This document shows, piece after piece, positions 3,524 to 20,014 of a stretch of DNA of 24,947 bases (position 1 is the first letter of the stretch; the number at the start of each line of letters is the position of its first letter). The stretch is taken from contig QZKU01000123.1 in NCBI GenBank assembly GCA_003598085.1, positions 1-24,947 on the forward strand. Reading direction: 5' to 3'. The notes under the pieces are model-generated. The model did no database searches, was not told where the DNA came from, and saw only the letters and a list, made by a program, of their open reading frames with translations. Source of the stretch: Candidatus Abyssobacteria bacterium SURF_5. GTDB taxonomy: Bacteria; Abyssobacteria; SURF-5. Both the position numbers and the translations under genes were made by a program.

Positions 3524-4315
3524 TCATTTTTCCCAGACCCGTTCGCCGGGCGGGGGGCCGTCGGTTGGCGGGCCGGCAAAGCATTGGGCTTTCAGCATCC
3601 AATCGCGCGCGGTTTCGCCAATGACCCGGAGGCGCGTGTCATCCACATGTCGTCTTTGCGCCACGATCAGGCAGAAGTCTTCGGCTGGACCGCTTATCTT
3701 GTCTGACGCGTTCTCCGGTCCCCACGTCCAGAGTGCGCCTGATGGAGCAGTGAGCTCGACGCGGACCGGGGTTTGAGGAGCTTGCAGGCCGCGGTTGGTG
3801 TAGCTCCAGCCAAAGGTTTTGACGCCGAGATGGGCGATGTGGCGCAGCCGATCGGTGTTGGTGCGTTTCAAGCGGAGAGCGTCGAAAACGTCCTGGCCAT
3901 GCGCCCAGGTCTCCATCAGCCGCGCGGTTGCGTGGGAGAGGGCGCTCATCGGTGGGCCGTACCAGAGGATGCGGTCTTTCGGGTTCATTGCGGTATAGGC
4001 GTCGAGCATCTTGTTTCGCTCGCTGCGCCACCAACTCATTAATTCATCGATGGGCATGTCCTTGCCGACTTCGTCGAGCGTTTTCATGAATTTGGCGATG
4101 TCGCTCATGACTTCCTCAATATGCTTGGCGAAACCGTCCGGGTCCGAGGCGGCAAGAGCGGCGCGGTCGTCGAAATACGCCAGATGACGTATCTGGTTCT
4201 TGATGTTCCAGGTGGGAGACGGAGTCATCAGCATCCATTGTTTTTCATCCAGACCCGCCACGACGGTATCGAGTTCCGCATGCTCGGTCCTGAGGTCTTG
4301 ACAGATTTGTTTCAT
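3524..4315 (-). CDS. TIGR03084-family metal-binding protein (DinB/MDMPI-like)
   Basis: The 263 residues match the TIGR03084 family, part of the DinB/mycothiol-maleylpyruvate-isomerase-N superfamily of four-helix metal-binding proteins. The recognisable core is TWNIKNQIRHLAYFDD (about 36-51), which carries the first metal-ligand His, and MSALSHATARLMETWAHGQD (about 124-143), which carries further His and Glu ligand candidates. Superfamily members often act as thiol-dependent S-transferases or isomerases, but TIGR03084 proteins have no settled reaction. GAGGTG seven bases before the ATG supports the start. It lies between a double-GNAT gene and a PIG-L deacetylase gene, both resembling parts of thiol-cofactor metabolism. 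Confidence 0.85.
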   Translation of the reverse strand: MKQICQDLRTEHAELDTVVAGLDEKQWMLMTPSPTWNIKNQIRHLAYFDDRAALAASDPDGFAKHIEEVMSDIAKFMKTLDEVGKDMPIDELMSWWRSERNKMLDAYTAMNPKDRILWYGPPMSALSHATARLMETWAHGQDVFDALRLKRTNTDRLRHIAHLGVKTFGWSYTNRGLQAPQTPVRVELTAPSGALWTWGPENASDKISGPAEDFCLIVAQRRHVDDTRLRVIGETARDWMLKAQCFAGPPTDGPPPGERVWEK

Positions 4316-4464: not shown

Positions 4465-5184
4465 CTAATAAAGAATTTCCACCCGATGAAAAGCTTCGGC
4501 GAGCTCGAACGATTCTCCTTCAGCCATTTTTATGGCGCGCTGCCTGACCCATTCTGTCAATGCCTCCGGCTCGTATTGCCCAACCTGACTCTTGTGACAC
4601 TGAAGCGCGGCCATCTTCAAATCAAAGGTGCCCGAGATATCCGAGCGGTAATTGATTTCGTCCGCACCCCAGAACAACATTTCTTCGACCTTGTGCGGCT
4701 CGAGCCCCTGCTCGAGAAGATCGGGGTATGCGAGGTGGTCTCTTGCGAACGGGAAAACGGCATCGAGTAAAACCTGGCCGGTGATCCTGTGGTCGCGGTG
4801 CCAGAGGTATTTGCGGTATGGATCTGCCGTCACGACCACTTTCGGGCGGTACTTTCTGATTTCCCGGACAATATCCTTTCGGAAGTCGGATGTATCTTCC
4901 AGACCTTGATCAGGATACCTCAGGAACACGATGTCGCTGACACCAAGCATCCGGGCGGCTTCACGCTGCTCGGCTTCGCGGATTTCGGACAGGACCTCTG
5001 GTTTCATGTTTCGGTCGCTCGTGCCTTTGCTGCCATCCGTGCAGATAACGTAAACGACCTTGTTTGATTCGCGGGTCCATCGGGCGACTGTGCCACCGGC
5101 GCCGAATTCGGCGTCATCCGGGTGGGGGCTGACGATCATCGCGTAATACGGCGACGTGATAGGTGGAGAATTGGTGGTCGGCAT
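4465..5184 (-). CDS. PIG-L family zinc deacetylase
   Basis: The protein has the PIG-L/LmbE signature HPDDAEFGAGG (about 19-29), which supplies the Zn-binding His and Asp, and the later WHRDH segment (about 125-130), which supplies another His ligand. Family members remove N-acetyl groups from GlcNAc-type substrates, as in MshB, Mca, BshB and PIG-L. I chose the ATG at 5184 (239 aa), with a weak AAGAGA upstream. A GTG at 5226 would extend the protein into a palindromic repeat, giving an unlikely Arg/Ser-rich leader. An ATG at 5139 just before the motif is also possible but lacks a ribosome-binding site. With the MshD-like and DinB-like neighbours it may act on a sugar-thiol, which is inference. 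Confidence 0.85.
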   Translation of the reverse strand: MPTTNSPPITSPYYAMIVSPHPDDAEFGAGGTVARWTRESNKVVYVICTDGSKGTSDRNMKPEVLSEIREAEQREAARMLGVSDIVFLRYPDQGLEDTSDFRKDIVREIRKYRPKVVVTADPYRKYLWHRDHRITGQVLLDAVFPFARDHLAYPDLLEQGLEPHKVEEMLFWGADEINYRSDISGTFDLKMAALQCHKSQVGQYEPEALTEWVRQRAIKMAEGESFELAEAFHRVEILY

Positions 5185-5215
5185 ACCATGTTCTCTTGGC
5201 GATGATCGGTTGAGC

Positions 5216-5240
5216 GGGCGACCCACCGGGTCGCCGCTAC
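5216..5240 (+). repeat. Palindromic element with CTAC tail (copy 4)
   Basis: GGCGACCC (5217-5224), spacer ACC, and GGGTCGCC (5228-5235) form a perfect 8-bp inverted repeat, followed by GCTAC. It is nearly the same sequence as the copy at 5267, so these two are recent duplicates or close relatives. Confidence 0.65.
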
Positions 5241-5266
5241 GGTAAACGTATAATGCTTTTCACGGC

Positions 5267-5290
5267 GGGCGACTCATCGGGTCGCCGCTA
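5267..5290 (+). repeat. Palindromic element with CTAA tail (copy 5)
   Basis: GGCGAC (5268-5273) and GTCGCC (5281-5286) flank a TCATCGG centre and are followed by GCTAA. It repeats copy 4 with a changed loop, about 50 bases away, in the gap before the PIG-L gene. Confidence 0.6.
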
Positions 5291-5349
5291 ACAGTTGAAA
5301 TCGCCCCCCAACGGTAACAGAGCGTGCTTGCTGCAAGAGGTCCATTGGC

Positions 5350-6553: not shown

Positions 6554-7543
6554 TTACCGGAAACTGATCCGGCATCTTGAGAGCCGGACTTCCCTGCCGC
6601 CGAGATGGTATTTATAGGGCTCGGCGCCTTTCAAGAAATCGTACTTTTTCCGGCCGATCTCGATGCTGTGTTTGATGCTAAGAATCTTGCAGAGCAGTCC
6701 GATACTCAAAGAACTATAACGAGTATCATATCCGCTGTTATATAGGTACATGGTGTTCTGGCAGTCGAAACAGAGACACGCGGCCACAGATGCTTCGTTG
6801 ACTTTGAGAATGAAAAGTCGAATGAGCGCTTCCTCCGACATAGCCTTCGTCATCGAGCGAAAAAAGGTTTCCATTTTCGAGCTCATGAACAGCGCCTTAT
6901 CGGAGCGGCTCTCGCGAAACATTTTGAGAAAGGGGTCCACCTCGCGCTCGATTTCGGCGGGGTTCTCCAGAACAACGAAATTAATTTCGCCTTCGTTGTA
7001 CAGTCGCCGGAATTTGCGTCTGATTTCATGCCGCTGTTTTCCGTCGAGCGAGGCCAAATACTGGTCCCAGTCGCGCGGCAGATCCATTTCGACGGATACG
7101 CCATCCGGTTCAAACGAGCACATGCCCCATCGATCCAGGGCTGATTCTGCCAGATGCGAGAACACTGTCGATTCGGGCCGCAGGCATCTCAGATCGAGAT
7201 CCGCCACGCCGCTTTGTGCCAACTCATCGAGCAGCGCGTGATAGAATTGCTTTTCATAACCGGGAACCACGGCGAGATCCATGCAGTCGCAGATCTCCGG
7301 ATCGCCGACGAAAGAGGCCGTTGTGCCTTTGATGGAAAGCGGCGCCACGCCGATTGATTTTCCCCTTTCCTTCATTACGCATATGTGGAGTTGGTCGTCC
7401 GGGGAAAACACATTGCGCCATGCCTGCATCCAGCGGGGCAGCATAAAGACAGGTTGTTGTTTTGGGACTCCGCTTGAATGCTCCACATAAACGTCGATGT
7501 TATTGAAAGCCTCTATAGCTGCGGCCGTTGCCATCGTCTTCAT
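6554..7543 (-). CDS. FemAB/BioF2-like acyltransferase (GNAT fold)
   Basis: The 329 residues match the Acetyltransf_6 (BioF2/CelD) group with a duplicated GNAT fold. The hallmarks are GKQRHEIRRKFRRL (about 188-201), a helix before the acyl-acceptor cleft, and the C-terminal YDFLKGAEPYKYHLG block with its FLKG/Y-K pair. Relatives transfer acyl or aminoacyl groups to cell-envelope polysaccharide, peptidoglycan or small molecules. Its ATG overlaps the accC stop in an ATGA junction, so translation is coupled to biotin carboxylase. That coupling is unusual for a generic envelope enzyme and hints that it uses or modifies an acyl-CoA made by the carboxylase module. It has no signal peptide, so it is probably cytoplasmic. 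Confidence 0.8.
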   Translation of the reverse strand: MKTMATAAAIEAFNNIDVYVEHSSGVPKQQPVFMLPRWMQAWRNVFSPDDQLHICVMKERGKSIGVAPLSIKGTTASFVGDPEICDCMDLAVVPGYEKQFYHALLDELAQSGVADLDLRCLRPESTVFSHLAESALDRWGMCSFEPDGVSVEMDLPRDWDQYLASLDGKQRHEIRRKFRRLYNEGEINFVVLENPAEIEREVDPFLKMFRESRSDKALFMSSKMETFFRSMTKAMSEEALIRLFILKVNEASVAACLCFDCQNTMYLYNSGYDTRYSSLSIGLLCKILSIKHSIEIGRKKYDFLKGAEPYKYHLGGREVRLSRCRISFR

Positions 7544-8904
7544 TCTTCGTCATCATCATCGTCGTCCGTAACAAATTTTCTGATGTAGCCGGTATGGATA
7601 TCTCCTTTCTGGAAATCCGGATCATCGACGATCTCCAGATACAGGGGGATTGTTGTCTTTATCGGTTGGATGGTAAATTCCTGAAGAGCCTTTTTGAGGA
7701 TGCGGATTGCGCCGTCTCTGGTGTGATCGTGCGCGATGAGCTTGGCCACGAGAGAATCGTAATATATCGGCAACTCGTAACCCTGATACAGGTGCGTGTC
7801 GAGCCTGATTCCGCTGCCGGCGGGCGGGCGATATTCCTTGATAATTCCTGGAGAAGGCGCGAAGTTGAAATCCGGATTCTCGGCATTGATCCGGCATTCG
7901 ATGGCCCAGCCGTTGAGGGGGATGTCGTCGAAGCTGTACGCGAGTCTGCCGCCATCGGCGAGTCGAATCTGCTCTTTTACGAGGTCTATGCCGGTGACCA
8001 TTTCTGTGACCGGGTGTTCCACCTGGATGCGGGCGTTGACCTCCATAAAGTAGAAGTTGTCGTCCCGGTCGAGCAGGAATTCCACGGTGCCCGCATTGAA
8101 GTAGTTGAGGGCCTTCGCCGCGGTGATGGCGGCCTGCCCCATCGCCTGGCGCAATTGAGGCGTCATGACGGGCGAGGGCGCTTCTTCGATCAATTTCTGG
8201 TAGCGCCGCTGGATCGAGCATTCGCGCTCGCCGAGGTGGATCACATTGCCGGATTCGTCTGCCAGCACCTGGAACTCGATGTGCCGTGGGTCCACGAGGC
8301 ATTTCTCGATGTAGAGCGAGTCATCGCCGAAAGCCGCTTTCACTTCGGCTCTGGCTACGGCGAACTCTTCCCTGAGCGTATCTTCATCAGGGCAAATGCG
8401 AATTCCGCGGCCACCGCCGCCGGCGGATGCTTTTACCATGACCGGATACTGGATTTTCGAAGCGAAAGCGACCGCGTCATCGATTGAGCGGACTCCATCG
8501 GGGCTTGAGGGGACGATGGGCACTCCGGCCTTATTGACGGCGGCTTTTGCCTTTATTTTGTCGCCGGCCAGGTACAGGTTTTCGGGCGTCGGCCCGATGA
8601 AGACAAGGCCGGCTTCTTTGCAGGCGCGGGCGAAGTCTCCGTTTTCGGCGAGGTAGCCGTAGCCGGGATGGATTGCCTGTGCCCCTGTTCTTTTGGCCGC
8701 CCCGATGACAGCCTCTACGTTCAAGTAACTCTTGGCGCTCATTGGCGGCCCGATGCAGACGCTCTCGTCGGCGTGCCGGACATGCAAACTGGTCGTATCG
8801 GCCTCCGAATACACGGCCACGCTTTTTATTCCCAGTTCTTTGAGCGCGCGCACGATTCGGAGGGCGATTTCGCCTCTATTGGCTATCAGTATTTTCGAGA
8901 ACAT
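7540..8904 (-). CDS. accC: Biotin carboxylase (acyl-CoA carboxylase alpha part)
   Basis: This 454-residue enzyme carboxylates biotin on the carrier protein using ATP and bicarbonate. The N-terminal domain starts FSKILIANRGEIA. The ATP-grasp domain has the glycine-rich loop KASAGGGGRGIR, and the active-site strand MEVNARIQVEHPVTE follows. The length is normal for a free AccC subunit with no fused carrier domain. The C-terminus ends in an acidic run (six Asp and two Glu) that is not needed for the fold. I prefer the ATG at 8904 over the adjacent TTG at 8907; AAGGA lies nine bases upstream. The separate biotin carrier gene is 37 bases upstream and the carboxyltransferases are farther upstream on the same strand. 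The accC stop overlaps the start of the FemAB-like gene. Confidence 0.95.
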   Translation of the reverse strand: MFSKILIANRGEIALRIVRALKELGIKSVAVYSEADTTSLHVRHADESVCIGPPMSAKSYLNVEAVIGAAKRTGAQAIHPGYGYLAENGDFARACKEAGLVFIGPTPENLYLAGDKIKAKAAVNKAGVPIVPSSPDGVRSIDDAVAFASKIQYPVMVKASAGGGGRGIRICPDEDTLREEFAVARAEVKAAFGDDSLYIEKCLVDPRHIEFQVLADESGNVIHLGERECSIQRRYQKLIEEAPSPVMTPQLRQAMGQAAITAAKALNYFNAGTVEFLLDRDDNFYFMEVNARIQVEHPVTEMVTGIDLVKEQIRLADGGRLAYSFDDIPLNGWAIECRINAENPDFNFAPSPGIIKEYRPPAGSGIRLDTHLYQGYELPIYYDSLVAKLIAHDHTRDGAIRILKKALQEFTIQPIKTTIPLYLEIVDDPDFQKGDIHTGYIRKFVTDDDDDDEE

Positions 8905-8941
8905 CAATCGGCATCCTTAAAAACGAATTTGGGCATGGCAT

Positions 8942-9190
8942 CTATTCAGTTTCCAGGATGAACATCAAGTCGCCGTCGGCCAGCGGCGTTTCGTTTTGTG
9001 CGATGATCTCGAGAATCTTTCCGGCTGCGGGCGATTTGATTTTTTGAAACACTTTCATGGTCTCGAGCAGGGCGAGAATCTGTTTTTTCTTGACTGCGTC
9101 GCCCACCTCGACATATGGCGGTTGTTCGGGAGACGGCTTTCTGTAGAAGACTCCGGACATAGGCGCTCTCACTTCGAGTTTCTTGTTCAT
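8942..9190 (-). CDS. Biotin carboxyl carrier domain protein
   Basis: This small 82-residue protein is a stand-alone biotinyl domain. It contains GVFYRKPSPEQPPYVEVGD, which resembles the AccB C-terminal domain including part of the thumb, and the attachment site ETMKVF with Lys46 as the biotinylated residue. The usual motif is EAMKM, so Thr and Val replace Ala and the second Met. These are conservative changes that should still allow biotinylation but may tune ligase recognition. It lacks the N-terminal region of full AccB. CAGGAG precedes the ATG. It lies between enoyl-CoA hydratase and accC and presumably ferries carboxybiotin between AccC and the carboxyltransferases. No biotin ligase gene is in the window. 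Confidence 0.9.
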   Translation of the reverse strand: MNKKLEVRAPMSGVFYRKPSPEQPPYVEVGDAVKKKQILALLETMKVFQKIKSPAAGKILEIIAQNETPLADGDLMFILETE

Positions 9191-9244: not shown

Positions 9245-10030
9245 CTACCGTCCTTTCCACACCGGGTCTCTCTTTTGCATGAAGGCGGCCACACCTTCCA
9301 TCAGGTCTTCCACCTGGGTGTTGACAGTAAGTTGCGAATGAAGATAGCTCAATGCATCGTCGACGGCCATGTCAGCGATTTTGTAGAACGATGACTTGCC
9401 AAGCCCCATAACAGCGGGGCTGAACGATGAGAGTTTTTTAGCCATTTCGGAAACTCTCTGCTGGAATGAGTCTTTGGGGACAGAATAATTGATTATGCCG
9501 ATGCGCTCAGCCTCGGCGGCCGGGATTCGGTCTCCGGTCATGCACAATTCGAGGGCCTTTTTTCTCCCGACATTTCGGATGAGAACGGCGGTAACCATAT
9601 ATGGCCACAGTCCGCGCTTTATTTCCGGCAGCCCGAATTGTGCGTCCTCACTCGCGATGGCGACATCGCTTGACAAACACAGCCCCATCCCGCCGGCGAG
9701 GCAATAGCCTTCGATGGCGGCGAGGATCGGCGTCTTGCATGAGTTCATTTTCATCAGTAGATTTGCGTAGTGGCCGCGGTCGTAATGCATGTCGAGAAAC
9801 GACTGGTCGCCGCCGAAGCTGCCGCCGAGATCGGCGCCGGAGCAGAAATTGCCGCCGGTGCCGGTGAGAATGATTGCTGAGACATTGGGGTCGTCGCCGG
9901 CCTGATCGAGGTATTTGGTCAATGCGGCGATGACGGCGGAATTGAGCGCGTTGCGGCGTTCCGGCCGGTTAATGGTGATGGAGGCTACTTTATCTTTTAT
10001 CTCGTAAAGAACCTCACGGGTTTCGCTCAT
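9245..10030 (-). CDS. Enoyl-CoA hydratase/isomerase family protein
   Basis: This is a crotonase-fold protein of 261 residues. The oxyanion-hole segments are GGNFCSGADL (about 59-68) and LAGGMGLCLSSD (about 110-121). The second motif normally has a catalytic Glu after GG(G/C) (Glu144 in rat hydratase), but here that position is Gly. The other glutamate (Glu164 equivalent) is kept in FGLPEI (about 132-137). Losing one of the two glutamates is known among crotonase relatives that hydrate branched acyl-CoAs or catalyse isomerisation, so simple crotonyl-CoA hydration should not be assumed. AAGGAG precedes the ATG. Next to a carboxylase it could act like AtuE/LiuC, hydrating a carboxylated enoyl-CoA, which is inference. 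Confidence 0.85.
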   Translation of the reverse strand: MSETREVLYEIKDKVASITINRPERRNALNSAVIAALTKYLDQAGDDPNVSAIILTGTGGNFCSGADLGGSFGGDQSFLDMHYDRGHYANLLMKMNSCKTPILAAIEGYCLAGGMGLCLSSDVAIASEDAQFGLPEIKRGLWPYMVTAVLIRNVGRKKALELCMTGDRIPAAEAERIGIINYSVPKDSFQQRVSEMAKKLSSFSPAVMGLGKSSFYKIADMAVDDALSYLHSQLTVNTQVEDLMEGVAAFMQKRDPVWKGR

Positions 10031-10325: not shown

Positions 10326-11192
10326 TCAGTTCTTGAGCCCGAGAATACGGCGCGCTTCGTCCGCGGTGGCGATGTCGCGGCCGACTTCGCGCGTTATCTT
10401 CGCCAGCGTTTCGACGAGCTCGCCGTTGCTTTGGGCCTTCTCGCCGTTGGGCAGGTAAAATGTGTCTTCGAGGCCGGTGCGCACGTTGCCGCCTTCTTCC
10501 AGTGCTTTGCGCTGGAGGTCCCAAACTTCTTTGCGGCCGACACAGATGACCTGCCAATGAGTTCCCGGCAACATCTCTTTTTTGAGAAGCGGCACCCATT
10601 CGGGCTTTGCCGGTTGTCCGCTGGCGACGCCCATAACCAGAGATATGTGCGGGTCGCCCTGGAACATGCCGGCTTTTTTGTACAAGGCGACGCTGCGGAC
10701 GATGCCGGAATCAAAGCATTCAAACTCGGGGACAACGTTGTTAGCCGTCATCACATCGAGGAAGGCTTTCACCTTCTCGACGGGGTTATCGAACGTCATC
10801 GGCGGCCAGGCCCATGTGCCGTTCTCCCTCAGCTTGAGGTAGTTTAGGGAGCCGGCGTTACATGCAGCCATTTCAGGTTTGACCGCTTCGAGACAGGCCA
10901 CGGGTCCTGAGATATCGGGACCGACGATGCCGGTGCTCTGGTTGATGATGATGCCGGGAACACGAGATCTGACGGCGTTGATTATTGATTTGACAACGTC
11001 CACGTCCCACGTTGGATATGCGCCCATGCCTGGCCGCTGGTCCCGGAAATGGCAGTGGACGATTGTCGCTCCTTGATTCCACGCCTGTTCAGCCGCGTCG
11101 GCCATCTGTTCGGGCGTGACCGGAATGTTGCCCATGTTGGGATTAGTCAGAACACCGGTAAGCGCGCATGTCAATATCGCTTCGCCGCTCAT
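10326..11192 (-). CDS. BKACE family beta-keto acid cleavage enzyme
   Basis: This 288-residue TIM barrel belongs to the BKACE (DUF849/Kce) family. Members condense a beta-keto acid with acetyl-CoA to give acetoacetate and a new acyl-CoA, using a Zn ion. The metal His pair is H46 and H48 in VHCHFRD, and the C-terminal ligand and catalytic acids lie in VRTGLEDT (about 236-243). The residue before that Val is Asn, where many relatives have GGHVR. That pocket position may affect substrate choice. AGGAGG lies six bases before the ATG, a very strong site. The gene is 50 bases after carboxyltransferase 2 and is followed by a repeat-filled gap. With acetoacetate decarboxylase nearby, acetoacetate may be a real intermediate. 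The exact beta-keto acid is unknown. Confidence 0.9.
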   Translation of the reverse strand: MSGEAILTCALTGVLTNPNMGNIPVTPEQMADAAEQAWNQGATIVHCHFRDQRPGMGAYPTWDVDVVKSIINAVRSRVPGIIINQSTGIVGPDISGPVACLEAVKPEMAACNAGSLNYLKLRENGTWAWPPMTFDNPVEKVKAFLDVMTANNVVPEFECFDSGIVRSVALYKKAGMFQGDPHISLVMGVASGQPAKPEWVPLLKKEMLPGTHWQVICVGRKEVWDLQRKALEEGGNVRTGLEDTFYLPNGEKAQSNGELVETLAKITREVGRDIATADEARRILGLKN

Positions 11193-11242: not shown

Positions 11243-12799
11243 TCATGTTGGAGAAGAGCCGTGCCGCTTCGCTCGCGGGGGCAGCTTATCCGTTTTATTC
11301 TTGACGACATCCATGGCTTCTATTATTTTTCTTCGTGTATCTTTGGGTTCGATGACTTCGTCGACGACGTGAGCGGTCCAGGAATGCGCCACGTCGAAGA
11401 CATCCAGTCTTTCGCGGGAGCGATTGAGATACGCATCGTAAGCGTCCTCTTCAATGCCCTTATCATAGACCTGCCGGTAGTCAAGTTCAGAAGCCTCGAT
11501 AGCGAAGCGCGCGATCGGCCAGGCAAAGGTCAGGTCGGCGCCCATTCCTTTGAGGCCGCTCATGATCATGCTGCCAGCGTCGGCGTAGGCTTCGCGCAGG
11601 ACCACGCCAATTTTCGGGATAGTCGAGGTGGCATAGACGTCGACGACTTTTCCGATATGCCGGAGCAGGCCGCGCGCTTCCTCGTTTTCGCCGGGAACTA
11701 CAGGCGGCGTGTCGACCAGATTGACGAGAGGCGTGTCGTAAGCGTCCAGCGCCTGCAGGAAGCGGTAGTACTTGTCGCAGGCATTGACCTCGTATATACT
11801 GCCCGGCTCGGCGGGATTGTTTGCCACCAGGCCGACTGTCTGGCCATTGAAGCGGCAGTAGCCGGTGATGAGCTGTTTTGCGTACTCGTTCTTGAGCTCG
11901 AAGAAATCGCCGCCGTCGACTATTTCGCGGATGACCTCGTGCATGTCGTACGTCTTGTCGAATTCATCGGGCACGATTTCGATCAGTTTTTCGACTTCGC
12001 GATTGGGATCGTCGCCGCGTTCCCATGCGGGCGGTTTTTCCCGATAATTTGACGGCAGATAGCGGAGCAACTCGCGGCAGGCGAGAATCGTTTCTTTGTC
12101 GTCGTCTCCGACGAGGTCGCAGGTTCCGCTCAACTGCATGTGGTAATCGGCGCCGCCGACGTTGCGGTCGATTTTTTCCGAGGTTGCCGCCGCCGTTTGG
12201 CGAGGGCCGCCGAGCCACAGATTTCCTGAGATTCGACTGATGAAGAGAAAATCGCACAACGTGGGGAGATAGGCGCCGCCCGCGATGCAGGGCCCCATCA
12301 ACACCGTGATCTGGGGGATAATACCCGAGTAGACCGACTCGAGACGAAACATCCAGTCGATTCCAGCCATGGCCACATCGCGGTAACCCAGGCGGCCGCC
12401 GGAGGAGTCGAGGAGGTTCACGAGCGGGATTCCCCACGAAGCCGCCAATTCGAGGCAGTGGCAGTACTTCATGATATGCTGCTGTCCGATCGATCCGCCG
12501 AGAACGGTGAAATCGGAGGAATAGATCATGATCGTGCGGCCGTGGACTTTCGCCGTGCCGACGACGGCTCCGTCGCAGGGCGCGTCGGTGAAGCGGCCGT
12601 CGATGCGGACGCCGGTGGTGTTTACGCAGGTGCCGAGTTCATTGAACGTGCCGGCATCGATGAGGACGTCGATCCTCTCGCGGGCAGTGAGCTTCCCGCG
12701 GCTGTGTTGCCGCTCGACGTGTTCGGCGCCGCCGCCGAGCTTGTTTTTCTCCTGTATCTTTCGGTAGCGCTCGATCGCTTCCTTCATTCTGTTTCCCAT
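11243..12799 (-). CDS. Acyl-CoA carboxylase carboxyltransferase subunit 2
   Basis: This 518-residue protein has the two crotonase-like halves of PccB/MccB-type carboxyltransferases. HSRGKLTARERID (about 30-42) is the family entry motif. The N half has LLDSSGGRLG and GPCIAGGAYLP (about 168-178), close to the MCC-beta pattern. In the C half, the oxyanion-hole loop reads AYADAGS (about 402-408) where propionyl-CoA carboxylases have YGGAYD and MCC-beta has a Gly-Ala-Gly loop, so Ala-Asp replaces a Gly pair. FAWPIARFAIEAS then aligns with the usual WP-x-A strand. It lies 52 bases downstream of its paralogue, and the two probably form one enzyme with AccC and the carrier. The ATG at 12799 has only a weak Shine-Dalgarno; a second ATG at 12787 is possible. 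Confidence 0.9.
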   Translation of the reverse strand: MGNRMKEAIERYRKIQEKNKLGGGAEHVERQHSRGKLTARERIDVLIDAGTFNELGTCVNTTGVRIDGRFTDAPCDGAVVGTAKVHGRTIMIYSSDFTVLGGSIGQQHIMKYCHCLELAASWGIPLVNLLDSSGGRLGYRDVAMAGIDWMFRLESVYSGIIPQITVLMGPCIAGGAYLPTLCDFLFISRISGNLWLGGPRQTAAATSEKIDRNVGGADYHMQLSGTCDLVGDDDKETILACRELLRYLPSNYREKPPAWERGDDPNREVEKLIEIVPDEFDKTYDMHEVIREIVDGGDFFELKNEYAKQLITGYCRFNGQTVGLVANNPAEPGSIYEVNACDKYYRFLQALDAYDTPLVNLVDTPPVVPGENEEARGLLRHIGKVVDVYATSTIPKIGVVLREAYADAGSMIMSGLKGMGADLTFAWPIARFAIEASELDYRQVYDKGIEEDAYDAYLNRSRERLDVFDVAHSWTAHVVDEVIEPKDTRRKIIEAMDVVKNKTDKLPPRAKRHGSSPT

Positions 12800-12851
12800 C
12801 TATCCGTCAACCCCCTGATTTGACTATTTGGCTTCCTCGGTCACGACTTCA

Positions 12852-14402
12852 TTATGCGGGTTTGATATAGCGTCTCTTTTCGGGAAGTTCTTCCCGCTTG
12901 TTTTCGGATGCGTGGAGAGCCTTGATGATCCGCGAGCGCGTGTCCCTGGGATCGATGATTTCATGGACTGTGTACCAGGTGGTGAAGACTTTTCCCATCG
13001 TCATGACGCTGAACATCTGGCGAAGGATTCCGACATAGAATTCGAAGAGGCTGTCGTAGTTGCCTTCTTCCTTGGCCTTTGCCAATTCCTTGTGGAATAC
13101 AGCATGAACCATCATTTCGGGTCCTGTCGGGGCAAACTCGGTTGTGGGCCAGCCGTAAATGAAGTCGGGCCCCATCTTGCTGCAGCCCAGAACGATGTTG
13201 GAGCCGCCGTATGAGCGGCGCAGCACTACGGTGACTTTCTGAGTCGTGAGGTGGGAATAGCCGTGCAGGTTCTTTGCGCCGTGACGGATGACGCCCATGC
13301 GCTCCCATCGGTCGCCGGGCGGAAAGGCCGTTGTGTCGGACATCGTGAGCAGGGGAATGTTGAAGCAATCGAGGAACATCAGGAATCGATCGTACTTATC
13401 GGAAGCGTCCGGTTCCATGATGCCGCTCAGCTCGTCCGGATTGGTGGCGACAAGACCGGTCACGATTCCGTCGAACCGCGCGAAGCCGATGACGAGGTTC
13501 GGCGCGAAGTCTTCCTGAAGCTCGAAGAATTCGCCGTCATCAACGATGAGGTTGATGATCTCGTGGATATCGTAGGTAAATCGAACGTTATTGGGCATGA
13601 CATCGAGCAGGGCCTCTTCCCGCCGATTGGGATCGTCGGTGGGCTTGATTGCTTGCGGCCGCTCCCAGCAGTTTTGAGGAATGAATTCCATGATCTTCTT
13701 GCAGAGGTCGAGGGCGTCCTTGTCACTGTCGGCGACGAGGTGGCATTGTCCGGAGCGGGTCATATGGAAATCGGCCGAGCCTGCATCTTCGGATTCAATA
13801 GGGCCTCCCAACCACAGGAAGCCGGTCTCACTGTTCATAATGAGGAAATCCGAGAGCACGGGCACTTTCGCCATCGGGCCGGTGCACGGTCCGAGGACGA
13901 GGGCGATCTGAGGGATTACGCCGGAGTACCGGCAATAATTTTTAAGGACGCGGGCGATACCGAACGATCCCACATATCCTTTTTTCATGCTTGCCCGAGT
14001 TCCGGCTGAATCGAAGATGCCGATGATCGGCATCTGTTCCTGTCCTGCCATCTGGACGAGTTCGGCTATTTTCCATATGCCCTGGTCTCCGAAGGAGCCG
14101 GACATAACCGTGAAGTCCATGGAATAGGCCATGACCGGCCGGCCGCTTATCTTGGCCATGCCCATGATCACGCCGTCGCCCGGGCTCGGCCTGTCGCTGG
14201 AATCGGGAAAGGCGCGGAACTCTCGAACTGCGGAGCCGATTTCCTCGAAAGTACCCGGATCAGCCAGATATTCTATTCGCTCTCGCGCGGTCAGCTTGCC
14301 GAGCGCGTGCTGCAGGTCGGCGCGATCCGTTCCGCCGCCCGCCAAATTTTCCTGACGGCATTCTTCAAGCTTTGCAAGATAGCCGTCCATCCATTCGCCC
14401 AT
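12852..14402 (-). CDS. Acyl-CoA carboxylase carboxyltransferase subunit 1
   Basis: This is the second carboxyltransferase paralogue, 516 residues from the ATG at 14402. The start is chosen because AGGAAAGGAG lies nine bases upstream; an in-frame extension to 14501 is unlikely. The motif ALGKLTARERIEYL opens the N half. FDSAGTRASM stands for the usual DSGGAR, and the N-half oxyanion loop reads GPCTGPMAKVP (about 170-180), where relatives have a Gly-Gly; here it is Gly-Pro. The C half keeps a Tyr-Gly-Gly-Ser loop (about 397-400) followed by YGWPTTEF. Its weak points are therefore opposite to those of subunit 2. The two genes are adjacent, which suggests a heteromeric complex. It is separated from the upstream DUF35 gene by 308 bases, so it may have its own promoter. 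Confidence 0.9.
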   Translation of the reverse strand: MGEWMDGYLAKLEECRQENLAGGGTDRADLQHALGKLTARERIEYLADPGTFEEIGSAVREFRAFPDSSDRPSPGDGVIMGMAKISGRPVMAYSMDFTVMSGSFGDQGIWKIAELVQMAGQEQMPIIGIFDSAGTRASMKKGYVGSFGIARVLKNYCRYSGVIPQIALVLGPCTGPMAKVPVLSDFLIMNSETGFLWLGGPIESEDAGSADFHMTRSGQCHLVADSDKDALDLCKKIMEFIPQNCWERPQAIKPTDDPNRREEALLDVMPNNVRFTYDIHEIINLIVDDGEFFELQEDFAPNLVIGFARFDGIVTGLVATNPDELSGIMEPDASDKYDRFLMFLDCFNIPLLTMSDTTAFPPGDRWERMGVIRHGAKNLHGYSHLTTQKVTVVLRRSYGGSNIVLGCSKMGPDFIYGWPTTEFAPTGPEMMVHAVFHKELAKAKEEGNYDSLFEFYVGILRQMFSVMTMGKVFTTWYTVHEIIDPRDTRSRIIKALHASENKREELPEKRRYIKPA

Positions 14403-14710: not shown

Positions 14711-15127
14711 TCATACGCGGTCGAAAGGCCGAAACTTTGGAAGGGTGATTTCCTCGGAGACTCTCTCGAAAACTACTTCAACCGGCATGCCCACGCGAAC
14801 GTGTTCCGGCGGAATTCCGATGACATTCGATAACATGCGCGGGCCCTCTTCGAGGTCGATGACGGCGACCACATACGGGACATCGGCCGCGAAGGCGTCA
14901 CTTGGCGGTCTCGATATTATGGTGAATGTATGGACTACACCTTTGCCGCTCGAGTCGATCCAATCCACGTCTTCCGAGAGGCATTCCGGACAGAAATGAT
15001 TGGGGAAGAAAAACATCTGGCCGCATGAGCGGCATTTCGGGAGGAGCAGTTTCCCCGCTTTGCAGCCTTCCCAAAAAGGTTTTGTGCTTTCGGTGATGTC
15101 GGGCAATGGTTTTGCGTATTCGCTCAT
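14711..15127 (-). CDS. DUF35 Zn-ribbon/OB-fold protein, thiolase partner
   Basis: This 138-residue protein has the two-part DUF35 layout: an N-terminal Zn ribbon with C32, C35, C46 and C49, then an OB fold (about 58-130) that includes HTFTIISRPP and VPYVVAVIDLEEGPRM. DUF35 proteins bind SCP2-type thiolases and are needed for acyl-CoA channelling in retro-aldolase complexes such as Ltp2/ChsH2 and in archaeal HMG-CoA synthesis. The ATG at 15127 lies two bases after the thiolase stop, with AAAGG just upstream, so the two are translationally linked. An upstream in-frame extension to 15238 would run into the thiolase gene and is Arg-rich, so I reject it. The pairing with the thiolase is strong evidence for a complex. 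Confidence 0.9.
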   Translation of the reverse strand: MSEYAKPLPDITESTKPFWEGCKAGKLLLPKCRSCGQMFFFPNHFCPECLSEDVDWIDSSGKGVVHTFTIISRPPSDAFAADVPYVVAVIDLEEGPRMLSNVIGIPPEHVRVGMPVEVVFERVSEEITLPKFRPFDRV

Positions 15128-15129
15128 TG

Positions 15130-16332
15130 TTATACCTTTGCGAGCAGAAGAGCGGTGACGGACGAAAAAATTCCGCCGACGCCGCTCACGAGGCCGACCT
15201 TCGGGTCCTTCACCTGGCGCGCGGGTTCCACCTCGCAACGGAGCTGCTTAACGGCTTCTGTTATGTGGAATATTCCCGACGGCAAGCCGGGATGACAATG
15301 CGAGAGACAACCGCCATGAGTAACGATGGGCAGTTCGCCTCCGATCTCTATGCGTTTGCCGCTTTCGACAAACGCGCCGCCTTCGCCCTTCTTGCAGAAT
15401 CCAAAGTCTTCCAATGAGATTAACGGAGTGATCGAGAAACAATCGTAGAGTTCGGCGAAATCAACGTCTGCAGGAGTCAACCCTGCCATTGCGAAGCAGT
15501 CGTTTCCGGCGGAGACGGCGGGACTCGTGGTGAAACTCTTGCTCAGAGTCGCGTGCTCCTGGGTTGTTTTCGCGCCGCCGCCCAGAATCTCGACCGGCTT
15601 TTTCTTCAGGTCGCGAGCGCGCTCAAAGGTGGTAACGATGATGGCGGCCCCTCCATCAGATATGAGCGAGCACTCGTCTTTGGTGAACGGGGACGCGATC
15701 GGTTTTGCATTCATGACATCTTCGACGCTGATCTCCTGCCGTTTCTGGGCCTGGGGATGCATCGAGGCGTGCTTGCGGATCGATACCGCCACTTGCGCCA
15801 GTTGCTCATGCGTGGTGCCGAATTCGGCCATGTGGCGGTTGGCGTACAGCGCATATTGTCCGATGAGCGTTGTCCCAAAGGGCACCTCGAAGTCGGGGTG
15901 GCCTATGGCCGAGTAAACCGCTGTCATATCTCCGCTCGCGTTTCCGAACAAGCGAATCAGCCGTTCAAACCCGGCGAAAGAGCGCAGCGATTCAGCCGAA
16001 GTTATCAGTGCGATCTCGCACATACCGGCTTCGATCGCATTTGCGGCGGTCAGCACATTCAGGATATGGGTCGCGCCGCCGATTTGCATTACCGACGTGT
16101 AGCGCGGCCTCAGCCCTACGTATTCGCAGAACAGAAGGCTGTGCATCGGGTAGAGCACGGAAAAGGCACCGGACGTCATAACGCCGTCAACCTCGCTCTT
16201 GCGCACGCCGCAATCATCAAGCGCGCGAATCAGCGCCTGACGCGAAAGCTCGTAGCTGTCCTTTCCCGGTACAGTGCCGAGATCGCTCTCGCCGATGCCG
16301 ACGATTGCTATTCTTTTTCGCCAACGTCTCAT
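15130..16332 (-). CDS. SCP2-type thiolase-fold protein, probable retro-aldolase or non-Claisen enzyme
   Basis: This 400-residue thiolase-fold protein is of the SCP2/nonspecific-lipid-transfer type. The opening KRIAIVGIGESDLG and the VDGVMTSGAF segment are typical. Where classical thiolases have the nucleophilic Cys (Cys-x-x-G), this protein has QIGGATHI (about 83-90), with no Cys. The C-terminal catalytic loop reads GGCLSHCHPG (about 338-347), so the His-Pro is kept but the Gly before it is Cys. DUF35-linked relatives lacking the nucleophilic Cys act as aldolases or retro-aldolases in sterol side-chain breakdown. A classical thiolase step is therefore doubtful. It starts six bases after the HDAC-like stop and is followed directly by DUF35. 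Confidence 0.88.
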   Translation of the reverse strand: MRRWRKRIAIVGIGESDLGTVPGKDSYELSRQALIRALDDCGVRKSEVDGVMTSGAFSVLYPMHSLLFCEYVGLRPRYTSVMQIGGATHILNVLTAANAIEAGMCEIALITSAESLRSFAGFERLIRLFGNASGDMTAVYSAIGHPDFEVPFGTTLIGQYALYANRHMAEFGTTHEQLAQVAVSIRKHASMHPQAQKRQEISVEDVMNAKPIASPFTKDECSLISDGGAAIIVTTFERARDLKKKPVEILGGGAKTTQEHATLSKSFTTSPAVSAGNDCFAMAGLTPADVDFAELYDCFSITPLISLEDFGFCKKGEGGAFVESGKRIEIGGELPIVTHGGCLSHCHPGLPSGIFHITEAVKQLRCEVEPARQVKDPKVGLVSGVGGIFSSVTALLLAKV

Positions 16333-16338
16333 TAAAAT

Positions 16339-17244
16339 CTATTCCTTGCTTCCTCTTGCAAACAGGCGCAGGCAGGTCTGGTAGTGGATGCGGACAGTGT
16401 CGCGCACATCGCGCGAGTATCCGCCCGCCAGGACAATGCAGATGGGAATCTTTTTTCGCTCGCTGAATCCGATGACGAGATCGTCGCGGCGGCGGAAGCC
16501 TTCGTGGGTAAGCCTCAAGGCGCCGAGCTGATCCTCTTCAAAGGGGTCGGCGCCGGCGAGGTAGAAGACGAAATCCGGATCAAAATCCTTTTCGATCACA
16601 TCGAGCGCGCGCCCAAGCTGCTCAAGATATTCCTGGTCGCCCACGCCGTTGTCCAATCCGATATCCAGGTCGCTTTCCTGCTTTACCGGATAGTTATCCT
16701 CTTGATGGATCGAGAAGGTGAAAACGTTTTCTTCCTTCAAAAAAATGTGGGCCGTACCGTTTCCCTGATGCAGATCGCAATCTACAATGGCGATCCGGCG
16801 GGCCTTCTTCTCAGTGAGCAGTTTCCGGGTGGCTATCGCGACGTCATTAAAGAAGCAGAATCCTTCGGCGTGATCCGCGAACGCGTGATGGTATCCGCCG
16901 CCGAGATTGATGCTTGGCTCCTGCGCGGTCGCGCATTCGGCGGCGACCAATGTGCCGCCGGTGCTGAGCAGGAAAGCGTCGATGACGTCGCGTTTGACCG
17001 GCAGTTCGGAGCTGAAGGTAGCCGGTGTCAATCGGGCATTGAGGGCGTCATCGAGATATTTTTCGGTATGCACCAGGAGCAGCTCATCGCGGGTCGGGAC
17101 GCGGGGTTGAATGAGATGAGCGCGGGGGTCGGAAAGATTTTCATGTTTTTCCAGCATCTGGTACACGAGCCGGTACTTCTTTGAGGGAAAGACATGAAAG
17201 CCGATATCGCAGTAATACTTGTCCGAATATACGATGGTGGCCAT
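16339..17244 (-). CDS. Histone-deacetylase-superfamily amidohydrolase
   Basis: This 301-residue arginase/deacetylase-fold protein is likely an active zinc deacylase. The tandem catalytic His pair is in GGGYHHAF (about 114-121). Zn ligands are Asp and His in VDCDLHQGNG (about 152-161) and Asp in AGADPFEED (about 227-235). The transition-state Tyr is in LAGGYSRD near the end. Bacterial members act on acetyl-lysine (AcuC-like), acetylpolyamines or other acylated amines, so the substrate is open. As first gene of the operon that includes thiolase and DUF35, it may reverse protein acylation or act on a pathway metabolite. It has its own consensus promoter and a palindrome just downstream of it. 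Confidence 0.9.
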   Translation of the reverse strand: MATIVYSDKYYCDIGFHVFPSKKYRLVYQMLEKHENLSDPRAHLIQPRVPTRDELLLVHTEKYLDDALNARLTPATFSSELPVKRDVIDAFLLSTGGTLVAAECATAQEPSINLGGGYHHAFADHAEGFCFFNDVAIATRKLLTEKKARRIAIVDCDLHQGNGTAHIFLKEENVFTFSIHQEDNYPVKQESDLDIGLDNGVGDQEYLEQLGRALDVIEKDFDPDFVFYLAGADPFEEDQLGALRLTHEGFRRRDDLVIGFSERKKIPICIVLAGGYSRDVRDTVRIHYQTCLRLFARGSKE

Positions 17245-18166: not shown

Positions 18167-19330
18167 TCAGTCGTTCAATACTTCCATGACTGCTTCTCTG
18201 CAGATCTCATTCGGTCCTTCGTATATCTGAAGTACCTTCGCGTCGCGCAGAGACTTTTCGACGAGGTAATCCTTCATGTAGCCGTAGCCGCCAAGCACCT
18301 GAATGGCATCGATTGCGACTTTCACAGCGACATCGGTCGCGAACACTTTCGACATTGCGGTGTATAGCCGGTTGGGCGGCAGCAGGTTTGCATTCACCCA
18401 GCACGCGCGCCACACCATCAGACGAGCGGCCTCGATCTGAATCGCCATCTCCGCCAGCTTTTGCGCAACTGCCTGGTGTTCGATGATGAGCTTGCCCCCC
18501 TGAACGCGCTCCTTAGCATACTGAAACGCGATCTCGTATGCGCCGCGGGCGATGCCGACGGCCTGCGAGCTGACCGGTCCGCGCGCGTTCGCGAGGCGTG
18601 TCATATGGATTTGATATCCCATGCCCTCGGGGCCGATCCGATTCAGGGGCGTCAATTTCATATCCTCGAAGATCAGGTCGCCGGTCTGCGATGAGCGCAA
18701 TCCCATCTTATCCTCGACCTTTCCGTAGCTGAGGCCGGGTGTATCCTTCTCGACCGCGAATAGACAGGATGTCTCCTGCGGGCGTTGAGGATCGGTGACG
18801 GCGAAGATGACATAGAGACTCGCAACACCTGCATTCGATATGAAGCATTTCGTGCCGTTAACGACATATTCGTCGCCCACTTTTCGCGCGACCGTTCGGC
18901 ACACTTTGGGGAGCAGTTCTTTGGCCTCGAGGTCCGAGCCGGCCTGCGGCTCGGTCGTGCCGGACGCTCCGAGACCGCCCTGCTCCACAATCAGAGGAAA
19001 AAACTTTTTCCATTGCGCCTCGGTTCCCGCGAACAGGAGCGGCGCGATCGCGAGCCAGGTTGCTCCCATTGTCGTGCATACCCCGGGCTCAACCGATCCG
19101 ATCTCCTCCATGAGCAGCATGGCATCGGTCAGCTTGCCGCCGCCTCCGCCATGATCTTCCGGGATGAACAGACTGAGAAATCCCAACTCGTGCAGCTTCT
19201 TCGGGATGCCCCAATCGAAAGCGTGGCCCTCGTCGAGCTTTCTCACTTTCGGCTTCAATTCCTTGCGGGCGAAATCGCGGGCAAGTTGGCGCAATGCTTC
19301 CTGCTCCTCACTGAGTTCGAAGTTCAACAT
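18167..19330 (-). CDS. Acyl-CoA dehydrogenase
   Basis: This 387-residue flavoenzyme introduces a double bond into an acyl-CoA and passes electrons to an electron-transfer flavoprotein. The family pattern runs from FELSEEQEALRQLARDFA through the FAD and substrate motifs GASGTTEPQAGSD and KCFISNAGVASLYVIF to the C-terminal IYEGPNEICREA. The catalytic base is the Glu of YEG. The ATG at 19330 is right because GGAGGTGG lies just upstream; a longer in-frame reading to 19762 would run into the tetR gene. No electron-transfer flavoprotein gene is in the window. It follows tetR by 38 bases and is followed by the decarboxylase. An operator-like site lies in the tetR gap. Confidence 0.93.
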   Translation of the reverse strand: MLNFELSEEQEALRQLARDFARKELKPKVRKLDEGHAFDWGIPKKLHELGFLSLFIPEDHGGGGGKLTDAMLLMEEIGSVEPGVCTTMGATWLAIAPLLFAGTEAQWKKFFPLIVEQGGLGASGTTEPQAGSDLEAKELLPKVCRTVARKVGDEYVVNGTKCFISNAGVASLYVIFAVTDPQRPQETSCLFAVEKDTPGLSYGKVEDKMGLRSSQTGDLIFEDMKLTPLNRIGPEGMGYQIHMTRLANARGPVSSQAVGIARGAYEIAFQYAKERVQGGKLIIEHQAVAQKLAEMAIQIEAARLMVWRACWVNANLLPPNRLYTAMSKVFATDVAVKVAIDAIQVLGGYGYMKDYLVEKSLRDAKVLQIYEGPNEICREAVMEVLND

Positions 19331-19344
19331 GATTCCACCTCCAG

Positions 19345-19359
19345 ATATACCATGTATGT
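19345..19359. promoter_or_regulatory. TetR operator-like site before the acyl-CoA dehydrogenase gene
   Basis: ATATAC (19345-19350), CAT, GTATGT (19354-19359) is an inverted repeat with one mismatch, matching the site at 19976-19990 (ATATAC, N3, GTATAT). It lies between the tetR stop and the Shine-Dalgarno of the dehydrogenase gene. Two matching copies around one TetR gene support a common operator. Confidence 0.65.
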
Positions 19360-19368
19360 TGGGCCAAA

Positions 19369-19977
19369 TTATTCCTTTATCCGAAACGGCAAGAGATGTT
19401 TTTCCATTGCCCGAAGGATGCTCTGTTCGTCCATCTGCCAGAGTTGCTGAAGGCGTCCGATCAGCAAGAAGCTCACATAGCCGTGCATGGCCGCCCACAG
19501 GTGAGTGGCGACCTCCTGCGGGTTGCAGTCGGGCTGGATGACGCCGGCTTGTTGACACGCCTCGATCACCTCGGTCAGCGGCACCCAGAAGTTCTCCATG
19601 ACCAAGCTGCGGGGCGGGTTTTCCCACGAATATTTCTGGATGAACTCGCTGCCAAAGAGCAGGGAGTAATAACGAGGATGTTTCATTCCGAAAGCGATAT
19701 ATGAGCCGGTCAGAGAACGGAGCTTTTCGGCGGGGGTCTTTGCTCTGGCGATGCCTTTCCATACGAGCCGGGCGAGCTTGGCCACTCCCTGCTCATAGAC
19801 GGCAACCATCAGCGCTTCGAGGTTGGGGAAATGATTATAGATTCCCATGGGGGTGATTTCGACCATTCTGGCGATTTTGCGGATGCTGACGGCCTCGATG
19901 CCCTCGCGCTCGAGGACGGCGCACGCGGCGCGCAGGATGCGCTGTTTGGTGCCTCCCTTTTCCGCTCGCGTTTTCAT
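19369..19977 (-). CDS. TetR family transcriptional regulator
   Basis: This regulator of about 202 residues has an N-terminal helix-turn-helix: the DNA-binding part runs from TKQRILRAACAVLEREG through VSIRKIARMVEITPMGIYNHFPN, the typical TetR signature. The rest (about 70-200) is an all-helical ligand domain of the type found in regulators of acyl-CoA and fatty-acid genes. The ATG at 19995 is upstream of the predicted transcription start, so the ATG at 19977 is the better start. The transcript would then be nearly leaderless. The promoter overlaps an exact operator palindrome, so autorepression is likely. It leads the tetR, dehydrogenase, decarboxylase group. The ligand is unknown; an acyl-CoA is a fair guess. 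Confidence 0.88.
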   Translation of the reverse strand: MKTRAEKGGTKQRILRAACAVLEREGIEAVSIRKIARMVEITPMGIYNHFPNLEALMVAVYEQGVAKLARLVWKGIARAKTPAEKLRSLTGSYIAFGMKHPRYYSLLFGSEFIQKYSWENPPRSLVMENFWVPLTEVIEACQQAGVIQPDCNPQEVATHLWAAMHGYVSFLLIGRLQQLWQMDEQSILRAMEKHLLPFRIKE

Positions 19978-19990
19978 ATACGGTGTATAT
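19976..19990. promoter_or_regulatory. TetR operator-like palindrome over the tetR promoter
   Basis: ATATAC (19976-19981), GGT, GTATAT (19985-19990) is an exact 6-bp inverted repeat. It overlaps the -10 box and transcription start of tetR, so binding would block transcription. The same pattern recurs at 19345. Confidence 0.7.
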
Positions 19991-20014
19991 ATCATGCCCG
20001 GCGGGAATTGTCAA
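19986..20014 (-). promoter_or_regulatory. Sigma-70 promoter of tetR
   Basis: On the minus strand, TTGACA (20009-20014) and TATATA (19986-19991) are separated by 17 bases, a near-consensus promoter. Transcription should start near 19979, only one or two bases before the chosen ATG at 19977, which implies a leaderless message. Confidence 0.7.

Follow-up and report, generated by a model that had tools for sequence, protein, structure and literature searches.

A conserved pair of full-length carboxyltransferase paralogues with a half-specific loss in one subunit, and a candidate composite active site

Described carboxyltransferases and the Abyssobacteria gene cluster

Known carboxyltransferases (CTs) consist either of one full-length protein that forms a homohexamer or of two separate halves. 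The closest relatives of the two proteins described here, CT1 and CT2, are PccB and the methylmalonyl-CoA decarboxylase α subunit (TIGR01117), with ∼35–42% identity over the full length and the same two-domain fold. Known members of this family are one-gene homohexamers with intact halves, whereas CT1 and CT2 are encoded by two always-adjacent genes, known from sequence. In AccA/AccD of acetyl-CoA carboxylase and in MdcD/MdcE, the active site likewise lies between two subunits, an acyl-CoA side and a carboxyl/biotin side, but each of those subunits is a single crotonase half, while CT1 and CT2 both cover both halves. The mycobacterial long-chain acyl-CoA carboxylase likewise combines two full-length CT paralogues, AccD4 and AccD5, in one complex (PDB 9t97, 9yx1), for which interaction data are available (PMC4347857) and in which the AccD4 and AccD5 chains are listed at 1:2 (12 D4 to 24 D5). 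That enzyme has a fused biotin carboxylase-carrier (AccA3) and an epsilon subunit; here, AccC and an 82-aa carrier are separate, and no counterpart of the epsilon subunit was noticed in this cluster without a profile search. The β subunits of 3-methylcrotonyl-CoA and geranyl-CoA carboxylase (MCC, GCC) share with our pair the N-half loop of CT2 (CxAGGAYxP), the MCC-type Asn435 in the C half of CT1, and a hydratase gene beside the carboxylase genes. They differ in that the rest of the CT1 and CT2 residues are PCC-type or neither; typing the whole proteins as MCC-like was rejected, as only the loops are MCC-type.

Mixed CTs of full-length paralogues (AccD4/AccD5) and two-subunit sites (AccA/AccD, MdcD/MdcE) are thus already known. 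What differs here is a pair of full-length subunits with a half-specific loss in one of them. The half-specific deletion was not seen in a probable Nocardia AccD4 fragment, and a literature search that covered few subscription journals gave no description of a half-degenerate CT pair.

The window analyzed, a stretch of 24,947 nucleotides from Candidatus Abyssobacteria bacterium SURF_5, contains a run of minus-strand genes for an acyl-CoA dehydrogenase, an acetoacetate-decarboxylase-like protein, a deacetylase-like protein (assigned by eye), and thiolase-like and OB-fold proteins, continuing with CT1, CT2, a beta-keto acid cleavage enzyme (BKACE), an enoyl-CoA hydratase, a small biotin carrier and AccC, among others. 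The main genes are as follows.

18167–19762, minus strand: acyl-CoA dehydrogenase, upstream and in the same orientation
14711–16332, minus strand: upstream of CT1, an OB-fold/zinc-ribbon protein with its thiolase-like partner
12852–14402, minus strand: CT1 (subunit 1), full-length two-domain carboxyltransferase; PF01039, 375 bits; 27 full-length orthologues aligned
11243–12799, minus strand: CT2 (subunit 2), full-length two-domain carboxyltransferase; PF01039, 353 bits; 27 full-length orthologues
10326–11192, minus strand: BKACE (PF05853); an orthologue adjoins the CT genes at seven further loci
9245–10030, minus strand: enoyl-CoA hydratase family protein (PF00378)
8942–9190, minus strand: small biotin carrier of 82 aa with an ETMKV biotinylation motif; orthologues adjoin the CT pair in other loci
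7540–8907, minus strand: AccC, biotin carboxylase (NCBIfam accC, above cut-off); orthologues adjoin the CT pair elsewhere

Both CT reading frames lie where an earlier note on this DNA had placed them, and each is covered by PF01039 over its full length (positions 2–490 of 493 in CT1 and 1–491 in CT2), with scores far above the cut-off of 22.3. The start chosen there for CT1 (14402) agrees better with the starts of homologues than the longer reading frame from 14501, and the loop motifs quoted are present, within GPCTGPMAKVP and RRSYGGSNI in CT1 and within GPCIAGGAYLP and REAYADAGS in CT2. The two proteins fall far below the cut-off of the mmdA/PccB family TIGR01117 (447.8 and 423.4 for CT1 and CT2 versus 998.8), and they are 39% identical to each other. 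The window holds one carrier and one AccC for both CTs, which completes a four-part biotin-dependent carboxylase. The same genome encodes two ordinary PCC-β proteins and a 1,105-aa reading frame with a CT domain.

Two neighboring gene calls deserve comment. The acyl-CoA dehydrogenase reading frame as called overlaps a TetR-like reading frame (19369–19995), and its family matches begin only at about residue 145, so its true start is probably well downstream. The product of 16339–17244, amid catabolic genes, reads like a member of the histone-deacetylase/acetoin-utilization family; it has no match in NCBIfam.

Distribution and linkage of the gene pair

A single scan of named genomes yielded CT1 orthologues of 61–85% identity, including one fragment, in metagenome-assembled genomes named as Ca. 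Poribacteria, Desulfobacteraceae, Deltaproteobacteria (Myxococcota by taxonomy), Gammaproteobacteria and Pseudomonadales; class-wide searches brought further ones. The pair spans at least four phyla (Ca. Poribacteria, Thermodesulfobacteriota, Myxococcota and Pseudomonadota). Where both genes are present, CT2 immediately follows CT1 on the same strand in 29 of 29 loci, a count in which two loci are one stretch counted twice, and the gap is often 20–60 bases. Of 85 genomes of one class, 14 have CT1; all 14 also have CT2, as does one further genome, in which the CT2 gene starts at a contig end. The pair is usually accompanied by the carrier and AccC, and in nine loci by an acyl-CoA dehydrogenase from the same family. 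Two genomes carry two CT1-CT2 pairs each (L039/L094 in G061 and L090/L091 in G847), with no single extra copy in either. A search of plasmid records gave no close relative of the pair.

In a tree with 30 PCC sequences, CT1 and CT2 form two separate clades that are sisters, a relation that is provisional since the tree was a quick one with PCC as the only outgroup. Their distance matrices are strongly correlated (r = 0.948; 0 of 2000 permutations). The two genes evolve under strong purifying selection (dN/dS ∼0.05 for both, with synonymous sites near saturation), and neither is therefore a pseudogene. The motif patterns described below are fixed over the 27 orthologues of each protein, beyond what chance would give.

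Both proteins are full length and have the two domains, and their canonical relatives are homohexamers; the two could accordingly be independent homomeric carboxyltransferases that act on different substrates and draw on a common carrier and AccC. The correlated trees and the adjacency are also compatible with two enzymes in a single pathway. We nevertheless consider independent homomers quite unlikely, as the two genes are never apart and their order is fixed, and as the N half of CT1, to judge from its residues, looks unable to form a site of its own.

Active-site halves of CT1 and CT2

The segments that distinguish the two subunits from each other and from other CTs are listed below.

12852–14402, minus strand: CT1 halves, the N half without the universal element and the C half conserved
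13860–13892, minus strand: CT1 N-half loop GPCTGPMAKVP, with Pro at the PccB Gly183/MccB Gly184 position
13800–13805, minus strand: CT1 residues 233/234, the site of the 10-residue deletion; other CTs carry GPxVVKxxTGE here
13194–13220, minus strand: CT1 C-half loop RRSYGGSNI, glycines invariant
11243–12799, minus strand: CT2 halves, the N half complete with an MCC-type loop and the C half altered
12263–12295, minus strand: CT2 N-half loop GPCIAGGAYLP, MCC-type, key Gly174 invariant
12176–12208, minus strand: CT2 N-half element GPRQTAAATSE, whose counterpart is deleted in CT1
11570–11596, minus strand: REAYADAGS, the C-half loop of CT2, with two residues more than in PCC and an invariant Gly409

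The strongest single feature of CT1, as judged from the alignments, is a deletion directly after the Gly-Gly of the N half. The 10-residue element GPxVVKxxTGE is absent from all 27 CT1 sequences; a similar element is present in 51 of 51 comparators (30/30 PCC and 21/21 other CTs) and in 27/27 CT2. Judged by an intact element, which CT2 keeps, CT1 falls outside canonical PCC-β in every orthologue. Going by the general layout of the crotonase fold, this stretch presumably lines the N-half active site, and the N half of CT1 looks degenerate.

The N-half loop gives a less simple picture. CT1 has Pro (20 sequences), Leu (4) or Val (3), and never Gly, where CT2 has Gly in 27/27. The Pro (residue 209, as numbered in the 549-aa reading frame) aligns with Gly183 of Streptomyces coelicolor PccB, a number counted from the alignment, and with Gly184 of MccB, which contacts bound acyl-CoA through its main-chain NH (PMC5187497). 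The proline thus does replace a functional loop position, as had been proposed. Loss of this second glycine is not a defect by itself, however: 14 of 21 other CT paralogues lack Gly there, having Leu, Ile, Phe, Trp, His, Asp or Ala, and 7 of the 27 CT1 sequences have Leu or Val. Because any residue but Pro supplies a main-chain NH, a clear defect would be confined to the Pro members. In the tree, the clade of Pro sequences excludes those with Leu or Val, and so Pro is probably the later state. Residue 209 of CT1 covaries perfectly with residue 175 of CT2: of 24 pairs, 18 combine Pro with Gly or Ser and 6 combine Leu or Val with Gln. CT1 residue 434 follows the same division (Ser in the Pro group, Ala or Gly in the Leu/Val group). 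We rejected this covariation as independent evidence, since it is essentially one split of the tree and probably one evolutionary event.

In CT2, the N-half loop had been read as retaining Gly-Gly. The key glycine at the Gly183 position is indeed invariant, but the register was off by one: Ala occupies the Gly182 position, giving the MCC-type CxAGGAYxP. The C-half loop had been described as having Ala-Asp in place of Gly-Gly, which is not borne out. Aligned with 51 other CTs, the loop is two residues longer (gap placement depends on the alignment), and the glycine equivalent to MccB Gly420 is kept in 27/27. Of 21 diverse CT paralogues, 13 have a longer loop filling the same two columns (YG[V/M]xG-type, mostly YGVAGG-like), which is therefore no defect by itself. 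Reading defects from motifs in single sequences was abandoned, as these 21 paralogues show that both a non-Gly N-loop and a longer C-loop are common.

Other changes in the C half of CT2 are more plausible as defects. Ala replaces the first loop glycine in 20/27, the HGAK and VMGPEG motifs are gone, and five residues are missing at PCC positions 450–454. At the position of MCC Phe380, an oxyanion donor (PMC5991677), mapped onto CT2 by motif, 24/27 have Val, Leu, Ala, Thr, Ile or Arg rather than Phe or Tyr. Against a composite site, the CT1 C half also lacks the Pro-Gly of the PGF motif, and a count of superfamily-wide residues kept in each half gave no asymmetry (CT1 versus CT2: 31 versus 30 of 37 in the N half, 28 versus 27 of 35 in the C half).

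Evolutionary constraint separates the halves more clearly. In MccB, residues 137–237 of one monomer and 392–492 of the other form the two faces of the site (PMC5187497); these segments were shifted to our alignment by motif and were not tuned on rates. The ratio of N-segment to C-segment mean diversity is 0.72 in PCC, 0.58 in MCC and 0.67 in CT2, compared to 1.27 in CT1. Random subsets of ten gave 1.13–1.43 for CT1 and at most 0.82 for PCC, MCC and CT2, without overlap, and a column bootstrap of the CT1-CT2 difference excluded zero (0.170, 95% CI 0.067–0.273). All 11 sister pairs gave a larger sum for CT1-N and CT2-C than for CT2-N and CT1-C, the site proposed as degenerate thus diverging faster than the one proposed to work. 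Very distant CTs have a ratio near 1 by saturation, which fails to explain the difference between CT1 and CT2 because both have the same overall divergence. The half-specific signal comes from CT1, with its N half relaxed and its C half tightened, and the pattern of CT2 is ordinary.

The complementary defects proposed in the earlier note are thus upheld on one side. Loss of constraint is clear for the N half of CT1, which looks degenerate; the C half of CT2 is changed but evolves no faster than that of canonical PCC, at a rate normal for the family, and so appears altered rather than clearly dead. This counts against a composite site, being compatible with homomeric CT2 sites. Both halves of CT2 show the normal constraint pattern, and CT2 could be the sole catalytic subunit, working through CT2-CT2 sites, with CT1 as a scaffold or regulator. 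Such a division of labor is difficult to reconcile with the unusually constrained C half of CT1, where the YGG, HGAK and TGPE motifs lost from the C half of CT2 are retained, and we regard it as very unlikely.

A mixed hexamer in which all sites are productive, with subunit differences that set the substrate range as in AccD4/AccD5, has a precedent in that complex (PMC4347857; PDB 9t97, 9yx1–9yx5), and Leu/Val-like residues at the N-loop position occur in other CTs. It would have to accommodate a CT1 that lacks a universal N-half element and whose N half is under relaxed constraint. This arrangement therefore seems unlikely.

A proposed composite site and its pathway

We favor, with a probability of about 0.6, a model in which CT1 and CT2 are obligate subunits of a mixed oligomer, CT2 contributing its N half to the working site and CT1 its C half. 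The opposition of these two halves, proposed in the earlier note from motif changes, now draws its support mainly from the deletion, the inverted conservation of CT1 and the strict gene pairing. CT1, CT2, the small carrier and AccC would constitute one biotin-dependent acyl-CoA carboxylase, most likely with a PCC-β-like hexamer of face-to-face CT1:CT2 dimers. CT2 would hold the acyl-CoA in its N half and CT1 would receive carboxybiotin in its C half, the two halves meeting across the dimer. The opposite site, made of the N half of CT1 and the C half of CT2, would be degenerate or strongly weakened because CT1 lost its N-half active-site element. AlphaFold models of CT1 and CT2 have the right fold, with mean pLDDT of 66 and 70; no loop geometry was read from them because values fall below 50 in many active-site loops.

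A heterohexamer of three working and three degenerate sites, the latter used for assembly or regulation, would stand between homomeric PCC-β and split AccA/AccD; we put this forward tentatively, as somewhat short of an even chance. If the composite site is correct, a conserved full-length pair in which one half has been given up would represent a natural intermediate between the two known architectures, and the two active-site halves would be open to study on separate genes.

For several bacterial groups, most of them uncultivated, the CT pair marks a catabolic carboxylation step that is unassigned so far. Its likely role is acyl- or enoyl-CoA carboxylation in a catabolic pathway together with the acyl-CoA dehydrogenase, thiolase, hydratase and BKACE. 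As to the substrate, CT1 has Ile at the position of PccB Asp422 in 27/27, a feature that in S. coelicolor accompanies a broad acyl range (PMC7835884). The MCC-type loops, this Ile and the adjacent hydratase hint at an enoyl-CoA or medium acyl-CoA, which is a guess.

The BKACE gene recurs beside CT2 (L036, L044, L078, L082, L083, L092 and L093), which suggests a shared pathway ending in beta-keto acid cleavage. A metal-binding protein of the TIGR03084 family, of unknown function, also recurs near the pair:

3524–4315 of the window: TIGR03084-family protein
15276–16073 of locus L036: TIGR03084-family protein
4513–5301 of locus L093: TIGR03084-family protein
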